Source: an uncultured Lachnospiraceae bacterium (GTDB lineage: Bacteria > Bacillota > Clostridia > Lachnospirales > Lachnospiraceae). Taken from it: a DNA stretch of 64,000 nucleotides. Shown here piece after piece: positions 6,765 through 19,236 of the stretch. Numbering within the stretch: the stretch's first letter is position 1; each line of letters starts with the position of its first letter. The translations under genes were made by a program, and so were the position numbers. Under the pieces are notes generated by a model. That model was not told the origin of the DNA. It worked only from the letters and a program-made list of their open reading frames with translations, and did not search any database. The stretch spans positions 186,001 through 250,000 of the forward strand of contig CANQSA010000001.1 in assembly GCA_947626415.1 (NCBI GenBank), written 5' to 3'.

Positions 6765-9700
6765 TTACTGTTTTTTAGGGCGCTTGTACGAAATAGCCAT
6801 TACCGGTATTGAAGCAGCAAGTGCGGCAAGTATCAGCATTATGCCCATATCGCCTGTTTGCGGCACATCGGTAATTGTATTGGTATTATCTGCGGGGGTA
6901 TTGTTTGTACCGCCGCTTGTCTGGTTATCCGTGGGATTTGTCGGCTTATTGTCCGGTTCTTCGCTTGGCTCTACATTTGGCTCATCACTTGGATTTTCAC
7001 TCGGCTCGTCGCTCGGTTTCTCACTCGGTTCTTCGCTTGGCTCATCACTCGGTTCTTCGCTCGGTTCTTCACTTATTGCCACAAAGGTAATTCCGTTTTC
7101 ATTTGCATATGTTTCCGCATAACTGTTGCTATAACCGTAAATAACAATATCGTCGCATCCGGCAAATACACCATCACCTATCTCAGTAACACTTGCAGGT
7201 ATTGTTATGCTTGTCAGTCCTGTGCAATGTGAAAACGCATAATCAACTATTGACGTAACACTGTCAGGAACTGTTATACTTGTCAGTCCTGCACAATCTG
7301 CAAACGACCCGCCATCTATTTCCGTAACGCTTCCGGGTATAGTGTAGGCACCATTCTTACCTCCGGGATATGTTATCAAAATAGTCTTGTCTTTGTTAAA
7401 TAGAACACCATTTTCAGATAAATAATTTTCATTATTCTTATCAACATCAATACTTGTTAGTCCTGTGCAATATGAAAACGCCTCAACACCTATCTCCGTA
7501 ACACTGTCGGGAATTGTTATACTTGTTAGTCCTGAGCAGCCTCCAAACGCCCCATTACCTATCTCCGTAACACTGTCGGGTATTGTTATACTTGTCAGTC
7601 CCGTGCAATCCAAAAACGCCGCCATACCTATTTCCGTAACACTGTCGGGTATTGTGTAGTCACCTTTTCTACCTACGGGATACAATATAAGAGCAGTCTT
7701 GTCTTTGTTAAATACAATGCCGTTTTCAGATAAATAATTCTCGTTATTCTTATCAACATTGATACTTATCAGTCCTGTGCAGCCAAAAAACGCACCCATA
7801 CCTATTTCCGTAACACTGCCGGAAATTGTTACACTTGTCAGTCCTGTGCAGCCATAAAACGCCGACATACCTATCTCCGTAACACTGTCGGATATCTTTA
7901 CGTCTGTCAGTCCCGTGCAGTCATAAAACGCCCAATTGCCTATCTTCGTAACACTGTCGGGTATCGTTACGCTTGTCAGTCCTGTGCAACCTTCAAACGC
8001 ATAATTTCCTATTGATGTAACAGACTTACCGTCAATTTTGGAAGGAATAACAACATCTCCGCCGTTTCCGGTATAACCTGTAATTCTTACACTGCCGTCT
8101 TCGTTTTCTTTCCACTCGTAATCATCGGCTGTTTCAACATCTATTGCAACAAAAGCAAGTTCGTTTTCATTTGCGTAAGTTTCGGCATAACTGCCACTAT
8201 AACCGTGAATAACAAAATCGTTGCATCCGTAAAATGCAGCGGAACCTATCTCAATGACACTCGCAGGTATTGTTATATTGGTCAGTCCTGTACAATTGTA
8301 AAATGCCAAACTGCTTATTGATGTAACGCTGTCGGGTATCGTTACGTCTGTCAGTCCTGTGCAGCCGAAAAACGCACTATAACCTATTGATATAACACTG
8401 TCGGGTATCGTTACACTTGTCAGTCCTATGCAGCCGTCAAACGCACTCGAGTCTATCTCGGTAACACTATCGGGTATGGTGTAGGCGCCTTTCTTACCTA
8501 CAGGATATATTATCAAAGTAGTTTTATCTTTATCAAATAAAACACCATCTTCGGATGTGTAGCTTTCGTTATTTTGACCAACATTTATTGCTGTCAGTCC
8601 TGTACAACCTGAAAACGTATCATCACTTATTGATGTAATGCCGCCGGGAATAGTTACGCTTGTCAGTCCTGTGCAATCTTTAAACGCATAATAGCCTATT
8701 GATGTAACGCTGTCGGGTATTGTTACGCTTGTCAGTCCCGTGCAATCACTAAATAAAAACGACTCTATCTTAGTAACACTGCCGGGTATGATTACTCTTG
8801 TCAGCCCTGTGCAGCCATAAAACGCACTACTGCCTATATCCGTAACACTGTCGGGTATCGTCACGCTTGTCAGTCCTGTACAGCCAAAAAACACCTCTCC
8901 ACCTATTGATGTAACACTGTCGGGTATCGTTACATTTGTCAGTTCTATGCAATCGACAAATGCACCATCACCTATTGATGTAACACTGTCGGGAATGGTT
9001 ATGCTTGTCAGACCTGCGCAGTCGGCAAACGCCCTATAGCCTATCTCGGTAACACTATCGGGTATGGTGTAGGTACCTTTCTTACCTACGGGATATGTTA
9101 TCAAAGTAGTTTTATCTTTGTCAAATAAAACACCATCTTCGGATGTGTAGCTTTCGTTATTTTGACCAACATTTATTGCCGTTAGTCCTGTACAACCATC
9201 AAACGTATCATTACCTATTGATGTAACACTGTCGGGTATCATTACGCTTGTCAGTCCTGTGCAATCTTTAAATGCCCTTTTGCCTATTGATGTAACAGAC
9301 TTACCGTCAATTTTGGAAGGAATAACAACATCTCCGCCGTTTCCGGTATAACCTGTAATTCTTACACTGCCGTCTTCGTTTTCTTTCCACTCGTAATCAT
9401 CGGCTGTTTCAGCATCTATTGCAACAAAAGCAAGTTCGTTTTCATTTGCATATGTTTCGGCATAACTGTTGCTATAACCGTGAATAACAAGATTGTCGCA
9501 TCCGGCAAATGCACTTTTACCTATTTCAATAACACTTGCAGGTATTGTTATACTTGTCAGTTCTGTGCAGCCGGAAAACGCACTACTGCCTATTGATGTA
9601 ACGCTGTCGGGTATCATCACGCTTGTCAGTCCTGTGCAACCCTTAAACGCACTACTATATATCTCCGTAACACTGTCGGGTATCATTACGCTTGTCAGCC

Positions 9701-11003
9701 CTGTGCAGCCGGAAAACGCACTACTGTCTATTGATGTAACGCTGTCGGGTATCATCAGGTTTGTCAGTCCTGTGCAACCCTTAAACGCACTACTACCTAT
9801 CTCCGTAACACTGTCGGGTATCATTACGCTTGTCAGTCCTGTGCAGCCGGAAAACACACTACTGCCTATTGATGTAATGCTGTCGGGTATCGTCACGCTT
9901 GTCAGCCCTGTGCAGCCGTAAAACACACTACTGTCTATTGATGTAACGCTGCCGGGTATGATTACACTTGTCAGCCCTGTGCAGCCGTAAAACGCACTCC
10001 TGCCTATATCCGTAACGCTGTCGGGTATCGTTACGCTTATCAGTCCTGTGCAACCATCAAACGCAAAAACACCTATTGATGTAACACTGTCGGGTATCGT
10101 TACGCTTGTCAGTCCTGTGCAGCCATCAAACGCAAAATCACCTATTGATGTAACACTGCCGGGTATCGTTACGCTTGTCAGTCCTGTGCAGCTTAAAAAC
10201 GCATCATTACTTATTGATGTAACACTGTCGGGTATCATTACGTTTGTCAGTTCTGTGCAACCGGAAAACGCAAAATCACCTATTGATATAACGCTATCCG
10301 GAATTGTTATGTCTGTCAGTCCCGCGCAGTCGGCAAACGCCCTATAGCCTATCTCGGTAACACTATCGGGTATGGTGTAGGCGCCTTTCTTACCTGCGGG
10401 ATATATTATCAAAGCAGTTTTATCTTTGTCAAATAAAACACCATCTTCGGATGTGTAGCTTTCGTTATTTTTATCAACATTTATTACTGTCAGTCCTGTG
10501 CAGCCTGAAAACGTATCATCACTTATTGATGTAACACTGTCGGGAATGGTTACGCTTGTCAGTCCTGTACAATTGTAAAACGCCAAACTGTCTATTGATG
10601 TAACGCCGTCGAGTATTGTTACGCTTGTCAGTCCCGTGCAATCACTAAATACAAACGGCTCTATCGTAGTAACACTGCCGGGTATGATTACACTTGTCAG
10701 CCCTGTGCAGCCGTCAAACGCAAAAAAACCTATTGATGTAACAGACTTACCGTCAATTTTGGAAGGAATAACAACATCTCCGCCGTTTCCGGTATAACCT
10801 GTAATCGTTATACTGCCGTCCTCGTTTTCTTCCCATTCAAAGCCGTCATCGGTTGTTCCCTCGGTTGTTCCCTCGCCTGCCGCCTTTTCCGTAATGCCGC
10901 TGCCTATCATTCGCGGCAAATCAACAGCCACACTGCTGCCGGCCAATAACGCCGCAAGAGATATACAACAAATCTTCTGTGCCAGCCTCGTAAAATCTGC
11001 CAT
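6765..11003 (-). CDS. BspA-like leucine-rich-repeat surface protein with sortase signal
   Basis: Predicted cell-wall protein of 1412 residues for adhesion or binding of host or microbial partners (inferred from the BspA/LRR_5 family). A signal peptide (ICCISLAALLAGSSVA) is followed by three modules that each open with GGDVVIPSKIDGKSVTSIG. Each module holds many 23-residue LRR_5 units of the type SAFSGCTGLTSVTIPDSV, interrupted by non-LRR inserts (NNESYTSEDGVLF). The C-terminus has a Pro/Glu/Ser wall linker of EPSEEPSDEPS units, then VPQTGD, a hydrophobic helix and KRPKKQ, a sortase-type anchor. The start is MADFTR, chosen because GGAGG lies 7 nt upstream. The DNA looks more AT-rich than its neighbours and the gene sits beside an integrase remnant, both suggesting transfer. 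Confidence 0.92.
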   Translation of the reverse strand: MADFTRLAQKICCISLAALLAGSSVAVDLPRMIGSGITEKAAGEGTTEGTTDDGFEWEENEDGSITITGYTGNGGDVVIPSKIDGKSVTSIGFFAFDGCTGLTSVIIPGSVTTIEPFVFSDCTGLTSVTILDGVTSIDSLAFYNCTGLTSVTIPDSVTSISDDTFSGCTGLTVINVDKNNESYTSEDGVLFDKDKTALIIYPAGKKGAYTIPDSVTEIGYRAFADCAGLTDITIPDSVISIGDFAFSGCTELTNVMIPDSVTSISNDAFLSCTGLTSVTIPGSVTSIGDFAFDGCTGLTSVTIPDSVTSIGVFAFDGCTGLISVTIPDSVTDIGRSAFYGCTGLTSVIIPGSVTSIDSSVFYGCTGLTSVTIPDSITSIGSSVFSGCTGLTSVMIPDSVTEIGSSAFKGCTGLTNLMIPDSVTSIDSSAFSGCTGLTSVMIPDSVTEIYSSAFKGCTGLTSVMIPDSVTSIGSSAFSGCTELTSITIPASVIEIGKSAFAGCDNLVIHGYSNSYAETYANENELAFVAIDAETADDYEWKENEDGSVRITGYTGNGGDVVIPSKIDGKSVTSIGKRAFKDCTGLTSVMIPDSVTSIGNDTFDGCTGLTAINVGQNNESYTSEDGVLFDKDKTTLITYPVGKKGTYTIPDSVTEIGYRAFADCAGLTSITIPDSVTSIGDGAFVDCIELTNVTIPDSVTSIGGEVFFGCTGLTSVTIPDSVTDIGSSAFYGCTGLTRVIIPGSVTKIESFLFSDCTGLTSVTIPDSVTSIGYYAFKDCTGLTSVTIPGGITSISDDTFSGCTGLTAINVGQNNESYTSEDGVLFDKDKTTLIIYPVGKKGAYTIPDSVTEIDSSAFDGCIGLTSVTIPDSVISIGYSAFFGCTGLTDVTIPDSVTSISSLAFYNCTGLTNITIPASVIEIGSAAFYGCNDFVIHGYSGSYAETYANENELAFVAIDVETADDYEWKENEDGSVRITGYTGNGGDVVIPSKIDGKSVTSIGNYAFEGCTGLTSVTIPDSVTKIGNWAFYDCTGLTDVKISDSVTEIGMSAFYGCTGLTSVTISGSVTEIGMGAFFGCTGLISINVDKNNENYLSENGIVFNKDKTALILYPVGRKGDYTIPDSVTEIGMAAFLDCTGLTSITIPDSVTEIGNGAFGGCSGLTSITIPDSVTEIGVEAFSYCTGLTSIDVDKNNENYLSENGVLFNKDKTILITYPGGKNGAYTIPGSVTEIDGGSFADCAGLTSITVPDSVTSIVDYAFSHCTGLTSITIPASVTEIGDGVFAGCDDIVIYGYSNSYAETYANENGITFVAISEEPSEEPSDEPSEEPSEKPSDEPSENPSDEPNVEPSEEPDNKPTNPTDNQTSGGTNNTPADNTNTITDVPQTGDMGIMLILAALAASIPVMAISYKRPKKQ
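7140..10760 (-). repeat. Tandem LRR-coding DNA repeats with long near-identical blocks
   Basis: Units of about 69 bp coding one LRR each recur dozens of times. On top of these, a block of about 200 bp is almost identical at roughly 8009-8215 and 9284-9490, and its first part recurs at about 10734-10830. Such blocks favour slippage and unequal recombination. Confidence 0.85.
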
Positions 11004-11108
11004 TTTTCTGCCTCCATTCATTCATAAATATATTTTTCTTTTCTGAAATAATGTAACATATGCACATTAATATTTTCTATGAACAAAAATATTTCATCAA
11101 GATATTTA

Positions 11109-14509: not shown

Positions 14510-15931
14510 TCAACCTGCCAAATGAAATATATTTAATAGCAGCAGCCCGCTTAACCCATAATACGTTACAACGGCGACCAGATCCGTGATGGTAGTAATG
14601 AGAGGGCCGGAAGCCGCCGCGGGATCCACATGGATTTTTTTAAAGAAAATAGGAACAATCGTACCTACGGCGCTGGATATGAGCATGGCAAGCAGAAGGG
14701 AACTTCCAATGCAGCCGGAAATGGCGAACGCTGCCAGCAATGTTTTTCCTTTTGCAAAATGTATATACAATCCAAGCGCAGCAAAAGAAACTGCACCTAA
14801 CAGCGCCCCATTGGATAATCCGATCTTTATTTCCTTTACGACTAACTGCATTTTCTGCTGCCCGGTAAGGTTCTCATCCATCAGTACACGGATCGTGACT
14901 GCGAGGGACTGCGTACCTGCATTTCCCGCCATATCAAGGATCAGGGACTGGAAACATATGATCAGGGTGAGCTGGGATACTACCTGCTCGAAAACCCCAA
15001 CTACAGAAGAAACCAGTATACCAAGCCCCAGCAGCACAAAAAGCCAAGGCAGCCTTTTTTTCATACTCTGCATAAGTGGTTCTTTCAGATCTTCTTCAGC
15101 CGTCAAACCCGCCAGCTTTGCATAATCTTCTCCCATCACGTCATCAACAACCTGTATAATGCTTTGGGAAGTAATAACACCCTGAATGTGATTATGGTTG
15201 TCCAATACCGGAATCAGATCTTCAGAATAATCCTTTAACTCTTCAATACAGTCATCAATCGTTTCATGTCCGTATACGTAAGGATACGATGTCATCACCA
15301 GAGATTTGAAATCTGTATCCTGACGAGCGATAATCAGTGCCTTTAGATTAACTGCGCCGTAAAACACAGCATCTTTATTTTCCACAAATATCGTTGATAT
15401 ATTATCATTTTCTGCCGCCTGTCTGGTCAGTTCTTTCATCGCCTGCCCAACGGTAACATTTTCTCTGATCAGGATATAATTCGTCGTCATTTTGCTGCCT
15501 ATTTCGTCATCATCATAAGAGGAAATTACAGCAAGCTCCTTCTTGACGGTTTCATCCATGCACTCGAATAGATTTCTCTTCTTTTCTCTGTCAAGTTCTC
15601 CAAGAATTTTTATTGCGGAATCGGATTCCATACATTCAATAATCTGCGCCGCTTTTTTTAAATCCATTTCTTCCAAATAAACGGCGGCGTCTTCATAGTC
15701 CGTGTACTCTAAAATATTCGAGACCATTGCCGTATCCAGGATCCGGTATATCTTCTTTCTTTCTGCCACATTGAGAAAGGGCAGGACTTCAGCGATATCA
15801 TTTTCATGATAATCATCGAGCCGTTCCCTCTTTGCGCTGGGAGAAGCGCTGCTCCTAATGATGCTGATGATCTCACTTGTATAATCAGGTTTAGAAGATG
15901 AAATTTCTCTTTTTGCTTCTAACATATCCAT
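14510..15931 (-). CDS. mgtE: Magnesium transporter MgtE
   Basis: A Mg2+ channel-type importer of the cytoplasmic membrane, 473 residues. Order: an N-terminal superhelical MgtE_N domain (about 30-130, YHENDIAEVLPFL), two CBS domains (about 135-260), a plug helix, then five membrane helices with the family signature near the end (DPAAASGPLITTITD). GGAGG lies 8 nt before the chosen ATG (MDMLEAKRE); the frame stays open 29 codons upstream but those codons fall inside a structured leader. The CBS domains of this family sense intracellular Mg2+. A leader ORF and attenuator-like stem upstream suggest control at the RNA level too; I see no M-box. Confidence 0.93.
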   Translation of the reverse strand: MDMLEAKREISSSKPDYTSEIISIIRSSASPSAKRERLDDYHENDIAEVLPFLNVAERKKIYRILDTAMVSNILEYTDYEDAAVYLEEMDLKKAAQIIECMESDSAIKILGELDREKKRNLFECMDETVKKELAVISSYDDDEIGSKMTTNYILIRENVTVGQAMKELTRQAAENDNISTIFVENKDAVFYGAVNLKALIIARQDTDFKSLVMTSYPYVYGHETIDDCIEELKDYSEDLIPVLDNHNHIQGVITSQSIIQVVDDVMGEDYAKLAGLTAEEDLKEPLMQSMKKRLPWLFVLLGLGILVSSVVGVFEQVVSQLTLIICFQSLILDMAGNAGTQSLAVTIRVLMDENLTGQQKMQLVVKEIKIGLSNGALLGAVSFAALGLYIHFAKGKTLLAAFAISGCIGSSLLLAMLISSAVGTIVPIFFKKIHVDPAAASGPLITTITDLVAVVTYYGLSGLLLLNIFHLAG

Positions 15932-16112
15932 TTCAAGAGCCTCCTTTTTTCCGTGAACAGTGAGCCAGGAGGAGCGAAGAGAAAATGCCCGCCCCCTGGA
16001 GTGACAAATAAAAGACAAATAAAATTATGCCACCAGAGCCTGCTGCGTGGTATTTGCCTTGTTTTTTAATGTTTGGGAATAAAATCAGATCTGAAACAGA
16101 AAGAAAAAGCAG

Positions 16113-16217
16113 TTATGCAAAACAAAAATGGACAGTTTTGCAGCTGATCATTCTATTCAGTTTCAGTTCTATACAAATACTTCGGTCATAACTGTCGCAA
16201 CTATCCATTTTGTTCAT
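16113..16217 (-). CDS. Leader ORF upstream of mgtE (34 residues)
   Basis: A small ORF (MNKMDSCDSYDRSIC at its start, ending HFCFA) with an AAAGGCGG ribosome site 9 nt before its second ATG (16208), which is the more likely start and gives 31 residues. It lies between the mgtE promoter and the mgtE gene. Its second ATG is inside the 5' arm of a long inverted repeat and its last codons follow the 3' arm, so translation would compete with the stem. It contains four Cys. Whether the peptide or only the act of translation matters cannot be told. No family recognised. Confidence 0.5.
   Translation of the reverse strand: MNKMDSCDSYDRSICIELKLNRMISCKTVHFCFA
16115..16211 (-). promoter_or_regulatory. 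Attenuator-like stem in the mgtE leader
   Basis: In the minus-strand RNA, AAAATGGATAGTT (16211 to 16199) pairs with AACTGTCCATTTT (16137 to 16125): 13 bp with one G-U, then TTTTTGTTTTG, a terminator-like U tract. The 61-nt loop is coding sequence of the leader ORF. A CTGAAAC in the loop can instead pair with GTTTCAG just downstream (16088-16094), a possible antiterminator. Confidence 0.45.
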
Positions 16218-16254
16218 CCGCCTTTCATAAAAAATTGATACTCTTTGCGTATAA

Positions 16255-16283
16255 ATTATATTTCATTTTTAACTTAATTGCAA
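16255..16283 (-). promoter_or_regulatory. Promoter of mgtE and its leader
   Basis: Minus strand TTGCAA, 17-nt spacer, perfect TATAAT. It places the mRNA start about 315 nt before mgtE, leaving a long leader. Confidence 0.75.
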
Positions 16284-16310: not shown

Positions 16311-16371
16311 ACACAAAAAAATGGGACTATTCCATTAGCTAAAATTATTTAGCCGGACAATCGTCCCATTT
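16311..16371 (-). terminator. Terminator of the beta-helix gene
   Basis: AAATGGGAC pairs with GTCCCATTT (arms 16363-16371 and 16319-16327), with an inner TTTAGC/GCTAAA type hairpin in the loop. On the minus strand it ends in a run of T (complement of the A run before 16321). Confidence 0.75.
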
Positions 16372-16428: not shown

Positions 16429-19236
16429 TCAGCAGACTACACCGGTCGAATCATATGCACTGGTATAGGTTTTCCCGTTTGCGCTGATGCAGCGCACCGT
16501 ATATCTGTATTTTCCTTTCGCCGGCGCTTTTTTCCAGGTATAACTGGTGGAAGCGGTATCCGCTATTTTAACCCAGCCGCGGCTTGTCTTGTAAAAAACT
16601 CTGTATTTTACTGCTCCGGCCACCCGATTCCATTTCAGTGTTACCTTGTTCTTGGATTTAACTGCGCGGCTGATCTTGGGCGCGGCAATATAAGTAACGC
16701 CTTTTCCCTGTTTATCATAGGCTTCCGCGCAATTTTTGCCGTCTTTGGTGATACTGCGTACCGTAAACGTATACTTCTTGCCGCTTACCGCTTTTTTCCA
16801 AGTATAGCTGGCGGAAGCAGTCTCTGCAATCTTAACCCAGCCGCCGGCTGATTTATAATAGACTCGGTATTTCGCGGCGCCCGATACTTTTCCCCACTGG
16901 ATCGTCACGCCTGCAGCAGAATTTGCAGCACTTTTTATTTTCGGCGCAGCGATATAGGTGATTTTTTTCCCTGCAGTATCATAAGCGCTGGTATAGCTTT
17001 TTCCGTCCCCGCTGAGACATCTTACGGTAAAGGTATATTTCGTGCCGCTTTTGGCATTCTTCCAGGTATAGCCTGTCAAACTGGTATCCGTTATTTTGAT
17101 CCATTTCTTTCCTGTTTTATAAAAGACACGGTACCTCTCCGCTCCCGCTGACGGCTTCCAACTGATTCGGATTCCGTCCGCTTCAGCAGAAACTCCCGTA
17201 AGGATCGGTGTGGATTGAGAAACGGTATTTTTATTTAAGGTAATGCTGCCGGCACTGATATTGCTGATTCCCGGGCCATACAGTTCATTACCTGTAATAT
17301 TGCCGGATGCCTTCTCAGAATCTCCATCCAATATCCGGATTCCTTTTTTCCCGCTTGCGCGGACTGTATTGGAATCCACCTGAAACGTGGATGCGTTCAG
17401 ACAGATCCCGTTAGCAGCCGAATCACACACTGTATTATTTGAGATTGCAACAACCGATTGGATCACGCTGATCCCATGCGCGCCGGAATCCGTAATTTCA
17501 TTTTTCAGGATTTTGGCGTTAGAATTTTCGCAAATACAAAATCCGCTGCCGGTCGATCCGGAGATGTGATTTTCGGACATAACCGCCTCGGTATCTGCCA
17601 GATAAAATCCATGCTTACCCGATCGGATAATCTCATTGGCCGAGCAGTTCGTATCTATACAATCCGAGAGTGAAATGCCGGTCCGTTTTACATCCGATAT
17701 CTGATTTCCCTCCGCTGTTACTTCTGACAGGCTGGCGCAGATACCGTTGCAGGCGGCATTTATGATCTGATTATCTTTGAGAACCGCCGAAGATAATTCT
17801 ATATTAATCCCGTTGCTTTCGGCATCGGAAATATGATTTTCGGCAAATACCGCAATATTGCTGTTTACGATCCGAACCCCGTTAATCCCCGGATTTTGTA
17901 TGATGTTTTTGGTCATGGTAATATCGTCGCAGCTGCTTATGCGGATCGCGTTATCCGCAGTATCCGAAATGGTATTTTCCATAATAACGCCGGAAGTACC
18001 GGCCAGATAGAGCCCTACGCCGGAAGCATTTATGATCGTGTTGCCCTTTGCGAAAAGGCAGCCGCCGCTTATCTGAACCGCATTCCATCCGTCCGGTCTG
18101 AACGAACGCAGATCCATAATATTGTCTTCCAGATTGATTACATTATCGCCGATGCCGTATAAAACCCGTTTCCCTGCTCCATAGATTTCATTATTTCGAA
18201 TGATCAGATTCGAGTTCGATACATAAAAAACATCCTGCTGAAAAATATCCGAAACAGAATCGAATCCATAAGTAATCGTATTATTGGTCACAGCGCCAAC
18301 GGCTCCGCCGCTGGCCCGCAGAAAGGCCCGCGCGTTCAACGCGGTATTCCCGCTGATGATCGCATCCGTCATATACGGCAGATCGATGCAGCAGGAACCC
18401 ATATTTTCAAAATGATTGTTCAGGATCTGGATCGAATTGCTGGAACACTGCCCATGATGGCTTCCCACACCGCTGAGACAATTATAAAAGCTGCAGTTCT
18501 GTACCGTTATATTCTGACAGGCTGTTCCGTCCAGCGGCATCGCCATCGCTGCGGTATCCGCACGGGCATAATCCAGCTGAAGCGCCTCTGAGCGGATGGA
18601 TGCCTTATTCGTGCCGGCTGTGCTGCTGTTCAGATAATCATAGTTCACTTCCGAACTATAAACAAAATCCTGAAAGATCACATTTTGTACCGTTGCGTTG
18701 CAGACTGCGACCAATTCAATAAAATGATTGCCGCAGCAGCGTTTTATCGTCATGTCTTCCAGACGAATATTATTTCCATGCCATAACGCGATCAGATCGG
18801 TAGCCGGTGAACCTTCCTCCGCGCTGCCGTCCCATACACCTCCGCTTATCGTCACATTTTTTATCTGATCATATCCCGGAATCGTACTGTTCTTATAAGC
18901 ACTGTACAGCATAAATTTGGAAGTGTCTCTGCGGACAATGACCGCATCCGGATCCAGGATCAGTTTGGTATTGGAATAGATTCTGAGCGGCTTACTGATA
19001 TAATAGGTGCCGGCAGATATATGCACGGTAAGCGGGGCTTCGTCTGAAGCCCGGCTCCCTGTATTGAGCGCGGACTGCAGTGCGTCTGTATCATCCGCTT
19101 TATCCGTACCATCTGCTCCGTACTGATCTGCTTCTGCCGTAATGCCGGAATTCGCTGCGGCATAAACCGGAAACGCGGCAAACCAACTCAAACTCATTAA
19201 AAGGAAACCAAACAGGATTTCTTTTAATTTTCTCAT
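16429..19236 (-). CDS. Secreted right-handed beta-helix protein with three FN3 repeats
   Basis: A 935-residue exported protein. The signal peptide is MRKLKEILFGFLLMSLSWFA ending VYAAA. Residues about 30-640 form a pectate-lyase-like parallel beta-helix: an opening substrate-domain-like segment (ADDTDALQSALNTG), then coils of the form ISGNTAL, MENTISDTADNAIRI, LKDNQIINAACNGI. Three fibronectin type III repeats follow, each with YRVFYK, a Trp, SYTWKKA and KYTFTVR. There is no sortase motif, choline-binding repeat or S-layer domain, so it is probably released or held non-covalently. Such helices bind or cut polysaccharides, but no catalytic residues can be assigned. GGAGG precedes the ATG; terminator at 16311-16371. 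Confidence 0.88.
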   Translation of the reverse strand: MRKLKEILFGFLLMSLSWFAAFPVYAAANSGITAEADQYGADGTDKADDTDALQSALNTGSRASDEAPLTVHISAGTYYISKPLRIYSNTKLILDPDAVIVRRDTSKFMLYSAYKNSTIPGYDQIKNVTISGGVWDGSAEEGSPATDLIALWHGNNIRLEDMTIKRCCGNHFIELVAVCNATVQNVIFQDFVYSSEVNYDYLNSSTAGTNKASIRSEALQLDYARADTAAMAMPLDGTACQNITVQNCSFYNCLSGVGSHHGQCSSNSIQILNNHFENMGSCCIDLPYMTDAIISGNTALNARAFLRASGGAVGAVTNNTITYGFDSVSDIFQQDVFYVSNSNLIIRNNEIYGAGKRVLYGIGDNVINLEDNIMDLRSFRPDGWNAVQISGGCLFAKGNTIINASGVGLYLAGTSGVIMENTISDTADNAIRISSCDDITMTKNIIQNPGINGVRIVNSNIAVFAENHISDAESNGINIELSSAVLKDNQIINAACNGICASLSEVTAEGNQISDVKRTGISLSDCIDTNCSANEIIRSGKHGFYLADTEAVMSENHISGSTGSGFCICENSNAKILKNEITDSGAHGISVIQSVVAISNNTVCDSAANGICLNASTFQVDSNTVRASGKKGIRILDGDSEKASGNITGNELYGPGISNISAGSITLNKNTVSQSTPILTGVSAEADGIRISWKPSAGAERYRVFYKTGKKWIKITDTSLTGYTWKNAKSGTKYTFTVRCLSGDGKSYTSAYDTAGKKITYIAAPKIKSAANSAAGVTIQWGKVSGAAKYRVYYKSAGGWVKIAETASASYTWKKAVSGKKYTFTVRSITKDGKNCAEAYDKQGKGVTYIAAPKISRAVKSKNKVTLKWNRVAGAVKYRVFYKTSRGWVKIADTASTSYTWKKAPAKGKYRYTVRCISANGKTYTSAYDSTGVVC

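Follow-up and report, generated by a model that had tools for sequence, protein, structure and literature searches.

The window analyzed here is a stretch of 64,000 nt, and the locus of interest lies on its minus strand, ahead of mgtE. This gene starts at ATG 15931, and its identity was found to be genuine by Pfam. A sigma-70-type promoter-like site lies upstream and matches the consensus at 10 of 12 positions. It gives the mgtE leader a length of ~315 nt (from 16283-16255 to ATG 15931), which agrees with the promoter and the leader of about 300 nt described in the initial annotation. A TATAAT-like box stood ahead of 67 of 78 leaders of the type described below, yet such a box was also present in 68% of shuffles and, therefore, the test of promoter conservation was uninformative. 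The promoter-like site is located 3′ of a terminator-like inverted repeat of the upstream gene, read from the sequence as AAATGGGAC...GTCCCATTTTTTT (16316-16371, minus strand) and lying immediately ahead of the leader promoter. The repeat is likely the terminator of that gene (935 aa, 16429-19236) and, thus, mgtE would be a separate transcription unit. The features of the locus are listed here in the order of their coordinates.

14510-15931, minus strand: mgtE, the controlled gene, with MgtE_N, CBS, and MgtE domains (Pfam PF03448, PF00571, PF01769)
15940-15946, minus strand: Shine-Dalgarno sequence of mgtE, AAGGAGG, read from the sequence
16012-16060, minus strand: candidate terminator hairpin from a hairpin search, AAGGCAAATACCACGCAG...CTGGTGGC...TATTTGTCTT, then TTATTTG
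16085-16102, minus strand: arm b′, which contains GTTTCAG, lies 3′ of the leader stop, and forms a duplex with b
16113-16208, minus strand: leader ORF of 31 codons, MDSCDSYDRSICIELKLNRMISCKTVHFCFA, with stop codon TAA at 16115-16113; the first ~10 codons are kept as protein in 81 leaders
16125-16137, minus strand: arm a′, near the leader stop and running into the U-tract TTTTTGTTTT; 13-bp pairing with a
16160-16172, minus strand: arm b, with its start 12 nt 3′ of the CGA first base; a covariation peak whose position follows CGA
16182-16184, minus strand: candidate control codon CGA (Arg, codon 9), from codon usage in leaders and the tRNA-Arg set
16199-16211, minus strand: arm a, the region of the leader start codon; 13-bp pairing with a′, covariation peak at -10 to +4
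16218-16225, minus strand: Shine-Dalgarno sequence of the leader ORF, AAAGGCGG, read from the sequence; a purine-rich site is kept in relatives (GGCAGGTGA in group A1)
16255-16283, minus strand: sigma-70-type promoter-like site, TTGCAA-N17-TATAAT

Elsewhere in the window, the minus strand at 6765-11021 encodes a large protein with repeated leucine-rich units (SVTSIGxxAFxxCTGL) and a Glu-Pro-Ser tail, which is probably a cell-surface repeat protein. The source genome also carries a second MgtE with 60% identity (L085, G000:C2:110751-112139, minus strand) that has no such leader, and a relative from the same genus (G001) carries only the L085-type MgtE.

The leader peptide and its CGA codon

The initial annotation had described a leader ORF of 31-34 residues with a ribosome site. 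The ORF, its Shine-Dalgarno sequence, and the 31-residue form held up, as comparison of relatives placed the conserved start at the inner ATG (16208). The 34-residue form, which would start at ATG 16217, was not conserved in relatives and is unsupported because this ATG abuts the Shine-Dalgarno sequence.

Leaders of this type were found ahead of 81 mgtE genes, nearly all of them from Lachnospiraceae. They were collected from 24 MgtE loci of named genomes, nearly all Lachnospiraceae or unclassified Clostridia, and from whole-genome searches of Lachnospiraceae. A nucleotide search of relatives with the leader as the query yielded chance matches only, since the leader diverges too fast outside its core, and genus-level searches for close relatives added few further leaders. 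A core DNA pattern was matched in 18 of 397 Lachnospiraceae genomes, with 0 control matches, and all 18 matches sit a few hundred bases 5′ of an mgtE, so the leader is specific to this gene. The count of 18 is a lower bound because the pattern is strict. The pattern was absent from ~370 non-Lachnospiraceae genomes of the class and, among 391 class-wide genomes, matched only two, both already-known members of the Lachnospiraceae. The leader is missing from many close mgtE genes, among them L114, which is the nearest relative found, and the second mgtE copy of the source genome. At one locus (L086, G138:C53:13997-16907), two mgtE genes are arranged in tandem; the leader of the first, VDGSDSHERS, starts with GTG, and the second gene begins within ~110 nt of the first.

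The leader peptide in the window begins MDSCDSYDRS, and the consensus start over the 81 leaders is M-D-(S/G/N)-C-D-S-(H/N/x)-G-R-S. The Asp codons at positions 2 and 5 interchange between GAC and GAT, where the variation is C/T only, the Cys codons interchange between TGT and TGC, and a Ser codon switches between AGT and TCT. Judged by these codon changes, the leader start is conserved at the protein level. Conservation is limited to the first ~10 residues and the C-terminus diverges; a free-standing small protein was rejected for this reason. The peptide ahead of the control codon contains 28.8% acidic and 0.9% basic residues, compared to 8.4% and 12.7%, respectively, for the remainder of the same ORFs. 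In 74 of the 81 leaders, two or more acidic residues precede the control codon, and proline is almost absent from this part.

In 65 of 69 leaders, CGA is the first Arg codon to appear in codons 5-13. Among the later Arg codons of the same ORFs, CGA accounts for 15 of 121, and it makes up 5.1% of the Arg codons in mgtE genes. This first CGA may fall anywhere between codons 6 and 12. In 15 of 79 leaders, codons 5-13 contain no CGA, and several of these leaders carry CAA or CAG at the corresponding site. No tRNA-Arg(UCG) was found in the source genome, which is 99% complete; the tRNA-Arg anticodons found were ACG, CCG, CCT, and TCT. Therefore, CGA must be decoded by the weak inosine-A wobble pair. 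In a his-leader assay, CGA was measured to be poorly decoded (PMC4046918). CGA is thus likely the control codon of an attenuator. The conserved acidic N-terminus and CGA, both absent from the initial annotation, look like the sensing part of the leader. Inspection by eye showed neither a conserved stop in an overlapping frame nor a slippery site at CGA, and frameshifting at this codon was rejected on that basis. A strongly conserved G opens codon 14 (+39) in 46 of 58 leaders whose codon 9 is CGA (or CAA/CAG/AAA); this base lies within arm b, 15 nt after CGA.

A codon of this kind could also report the supply of charged tRNA-Arg(ICG), or translation speed in general, and not Mg2+. Such a reading would account for CGA as the control codon and for a layout like that of the trp and his leaders. 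On the other hand, there is a single Arg codon and it lies ahead of an Mg transporter gene, whereas arginine attenuators are expected ahead of arginine genes, and the conserved acidic peptide would be left unexplained. We consider it very improbable that this supply is what the leader senses. Slightly less improbable, though still doubtful, is an erm-type arrest peptide that senses a ligand, perhaps a metal ion bound via Asp, Cys, or His in the tunnel, with CGA as the arrest site. The specific and conserved MDSCDSHGRS contains residues that could act as metal ligands, and arrest at codon 9 would give an identical geometry. However, many leaders carry other residues in place of Cys and His (MDSGDSLGR, MEGSDGAGR, MGSDGR, MDDGDYR), so that acidity and CGA persist and the ligand set does not.

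Competing helices and downstream elements

The initial annotation placed the inner start codon in the 5′ arm of a 13-bp stem, with the 3′ arm running into a U-tract. This stem, a:a′, is present in the window as AAAATGGATAGTT/AACTGTCCATTTT, with 16211-16199 paired to 16137-16125 across a loop of ~60 nt. A 13-bp stem with such a U-rich end was seen in 0 of 400 dinucleotide shuffles, and any 13-bp stem in 22 of 400. The fold of the whole leader was only mildly more stable than that of shuffles (z = -1.3 and -1.8). The alternative pairing of CTGAAAC with GTTTCAG, which had been noted as well, was also found (16166-16160 with 16097-16091) and proved to be the core of a longer helix, b:b′. In the alignment of relatives' mgtE leaders suggested at that time, the ORF and both pairings were conserved and covaried, and the proposal did not fail for lack of conservation.

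Covariation was scored through a self-versus-cross test, which compares the pairing of a segment to its own downstream sequence with its pairing to the downstream sequence of other leaders. In group C (diverse, n = 53), z was -12.9 for a:a′, -9.4 to -11.1 for b:b′, and -3.1 for a control segment, values that include a baseline of z ~ -3 due to the similar G+C content of arms from one genome. In group A1, which holds closer relatives, z was -2.4 for segment a and -5.0 for segment b; kinship among leaders enters none of these scores through a tree, though the cross-pairing control errs on the conservative side when sequences are related. Profiled by a sliding segment, the 79 leaders gave sharp peaks at -10 to +4 (t = -7.9) and at +35 to +48 (t ~ -7.5). 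Codons 4-10 formed a flat valley without consistent covariation in this profile, and the conserved codons were rejected as RNA pairing partners on this ground.

Arm a′ ends around the leader stop codon (median +1 nt). Since the segments follow each other in the order a-b-a′-b′, the helices a:a′ and b:b′ are mutually exclusive; masking a in the folding raised the pairing of b from 0.20 to 0.52. The position of b was found to follow that of CGA. The b peak started at +37 in leaders with CGA at codon 9 and at +29 in those with CGA at codons 6-8, and the centroid of b shifted with CGA position by 5.7 nt (permutation p = 0.0008). In both classes of CGA position, this puts the start of b 10-13 nt 3′ of the CGA first base. 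No shift of b was seen in the three leaders that carry CGA at codon 12, too few for a judgment. A ribosome gives a toeprint 15-16 nt from its P-site codon, and on the positions seen here the start of b should coincide with the leading edge of a ribosome whose A site holds CGA. Of all the observations, this tracking argues most strongly that the regulatory state is a ribosome that waits at CGA. With a ribosome modeled at CGA, equilibrium folding raised the pairing of b only from 0.20 to 0.27 and left the accessibility of the mgtE Shine-Dalgarno sequence unchanged. A modeled ribosome one codon past CGA covers b, and the pairing of b fell from 0.27 to 0.165.

Clear intrinsic terminators lie further downstream in many relatives. 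Hairpins resembling intrinsic terminators were found between the leader and the mgtE start at 32 of 77 loci, compared to 4.7 ± 1.3 in shuffles. Where a terminator lay 3′ of the leader, b′ of the same locus overlapped its 5′ arm in 11 of 22 cases (4.1 expected), suggesting that b:b′ is the antiterminator at those loci. The window shows no such overlap between b′ and its terminator-like hairpin at 16060-16012. U-tracts followed a′ in 21 of 79 leaders, compared to 7.6 ± 2.3 at random positions, so a:a′ may itself terminate transcription in some lineages, as proposed for the window. The initial annotation's view of this stem as an attenuator or terminator may stand for part of the family and does not extend to all of it; more generally, a:a′ occludes the start site of the leader itself and precludes b:b′. 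Behind b′, U-tracts were not enriched (5 leaders), and b:b′ was rejected as a terminator.

These data bear on a simpler version, in which a:a′ would be the sole switch, an intrinsic terminator broken by the translating ribosome, with b:b′ incidental. The absence of comparable stems with a U-tract from the 400 shuffles and the enrichment of U-tracts behind a′ are both consistent with it. Yet b:b′ covaries as strongly as a:a′ and b follows CGA, most leaders have no U-tract behind a′, and the conserved peptide and CGA would go unexplained. A sole switch at a:a′ thus appears most unlikely.

The downstream element that would turn mgtE off varies among lineages. Pairing of the mgtE Shine-Dalgarno sequence with the b′ region gave z = -5.5 in group C and -0.6 in group A1, with a weak positional peak (t ~ -3). 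In some lineages b′ may face the mgtE ribosome site instead of a terminator, although the overall signal is weak, and uniform sequestration of the mgtE Shine-Dalgarno sequence was rejected as a general rule. In one subgroup (L042-L050, L054), b is GGGCG.ATA and b′ is TAT.CGCCC, which is also able to pair with the mgtE ribosome site GGGCG. Four loci (L046, L048-L050) have a hairpin and then TTTTTT(T) directly ahead of the mgtE ATG.

A proposed attenuation mechanism and its signal

The architecture is well supported by comparison, which establishes, at the level of sequence, the leader peptide, CGA, both helices, the tracking of CGA by b, and the link to mgtE. The mgtE leader is very likely a translation-dependent attenuator, and the translation-coupled attenuator of the initial annotation remains the best reading of it. 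Our preferred explanation, which we hold to be probable, is an attenuator with the logic of trp and his, in which a slow CGA stands behind a short acidic peptide and the pause there switches mgtE on. From 5′ to 3′, the proposed order is a (leader start), CGA, b, a′ (leader end), b′, and then a terminator or the mgtE ribosome site. In this scheme, a:a′ would be the protector, b:b′ the antiterminator, and the downstream structures the OFF element.

When the leader is untranslated, a:a′ would form, hiding the leader start and trapping b. With b trapped, b′ would be left to the OFF structures, which depending on lineage would be an intrinsic terminator or a pairing with the mgtE ribosome site; in some lineages, including that of the window, a:a′ itself runs into a U-tract. 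A ribosome that paused as CGA entered its A site would extend to the start of b and sit between a and a′, so that b:b′ could pair and mgtE would be expressed. Once the ribosome has moved beyond CGA, b would be covered. Pausing of the ribosome at CGA is suggested by these arrangements, and we favor the pause as the ON state of mgtE. The ribosome itself would, thus, probably decide mgtE expression through the leader peptide and the competing hairpins.

The signal is more plausibly Mg2+ than not, with low Mg2+ as the most likely cue. Low Mg2+ is the likeliest cue because the controlled gene encodes an Mg transporter, no M-box precedes the mgtE loci scanned, and the acidic residues have a precedent in MgtL. 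Low Mg2+ would weaken the inosine-A wobble decoding of CGA and thereby may slow it, and ribosomes carrying an acidic N-terminal peptide would be disfavored. Early acidic residues cause ribosome pausing or drop-off, and MgtL works in this way at low Mg2+ (PMC11282234). Extended to the whole family, a single codon would let the ribosome sense intracellular Mg2+, as the rate of CGA wobble decoding behind the acidic peptide would select the helix and, hence, set the production of the transporter; we put this forward only tentatively.

In MgtL, low Mg2+ acts via drop-off and not via a maintained pause (PMC11282234). If drop-off took the place of the pause here, a:a′ would be favored and the logic would be reversed: low Mg2+ would cause drop-off behind the acidic peptide and a:a′ would be ON, while full translation would give b:b′ and OFF. 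The acidic N-terminus of the leader fits intrinsic ribosome destabilization, a slow codon would prolong exposure to drop-off, and in the MgtL precedent drop-off at low Mg2+ leads to transporter expression (PMC11282234). Against this reversal, U-tracts are enriched after a′ and not after b′, b′ often doubles as a terminator's 5′ arm, so that b:b′ is the antiterminator, and the position of b matches the edge of a ribosome stalled at CGA, a match that drop-off would not require. We therefore regard reversed logic as unlikely, though less so than the other alternatives, and continue with the pause at CGA as the ON state.

The initial annotation had likened the leader to mgtL of enterobacteria in logic and called the two unrelated in sequence. 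Both peptides do start acidic and their sequences do differ, as do the bacterial families; the likeness does not extend to an EPDP-like motif, which is absent here. Like the mgtL leader of mgtA, the mgtE leader has a short ORF with acidic residues at its very start, ahead of an Mg2+ transporter gene, with competing RNA structures and, as we propose from its sequence, translation as the sensor. MgtL itself carries prolines in an EPDP motif and works through drop-off and a Rho-dependent terminator (PMC11282234). In contrast, the mgtE leader lacks an acidic-proline motif, has almost no prolines, and combines a nearly invariant CGA with two covarying helices, a:a′ and b:b′; its OFF element would be an intrinsic terminator or ribosome-site pairing. 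With the trp and his attenuators it shares a conserved leader ORF that has a ribosome site and a coding signature, mutually exclusive protector and antiterminator helices, and a control codon directly 5′ of the antiterminator arm; a terminator segment that uses the 3′ antiterminator arm may be present at some loci. It differs from them in having one slow CGA in place of a run of codons for the amino acid of the pathway, and in its target, a metal-ion transporter gene, to whose product an Arg codon is unrelated. The erm-type translational attenuators share an early pause with refolding, which here would be at about codon 9, and in some mgtE lineages possibly the sequestration of the main gene's ribosome site. 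Unlike them, the mgtE leader has no antibiotic ligand, its main gene is mgtE, and control would run through a codon and an acidic peptide. A riboswitch candidate, the Thioalkalivibrio mgtE motif, also lies 5′ of mgtE; it belongs to another phylum and, in the portion of the report consulted, is described as a structured RNA whose stem holds the mgtE start, with no leader ORF reported (PMC11109978).

A leader of this type was not found described in the literature searched, which was the open-access part of PubMed Central. If the proposal is true, ribosome-based control of an Mg2+ transporter would have been invented a second time, independently, in dominant gut bacteria, and the leader would be an attenuator whose control codon is slow by decoding and not by lack of an amino acid. 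The proposal also makes testable the sensing of Mg2+ by ribosomes via wobble decoding and acidic nascent chains.

The leader stands where an M-box might be expected. The M-box riboswitch (RF00380) likewise controls Mg transporter genes and is present in some Lachnospiraceae, but the mgtE leader is a peptide-coding leader in place of an aptamer. The initial annotation saw no M-box, and an Rfam search confirmed this: neither an M-box nor another family reached the gathering score in the mgtE leader of the window, for which reason such families were rejected, and RF00380 gave no weak match there at E ≤ 10. At the gathering level, the M-box was absent from the window and from the 60 mgtE loci scanned. 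The same model found M-boxes in 10 of 100 Lachnospiraceae genomes, ahead of other Mg transporter genes (L202-L211), which by eye from their translations are other MgtE proteins, MgtA-like ATPases, and one CorA. Among these 10 genomes, only G089 also has a leader-bearing mgtE.
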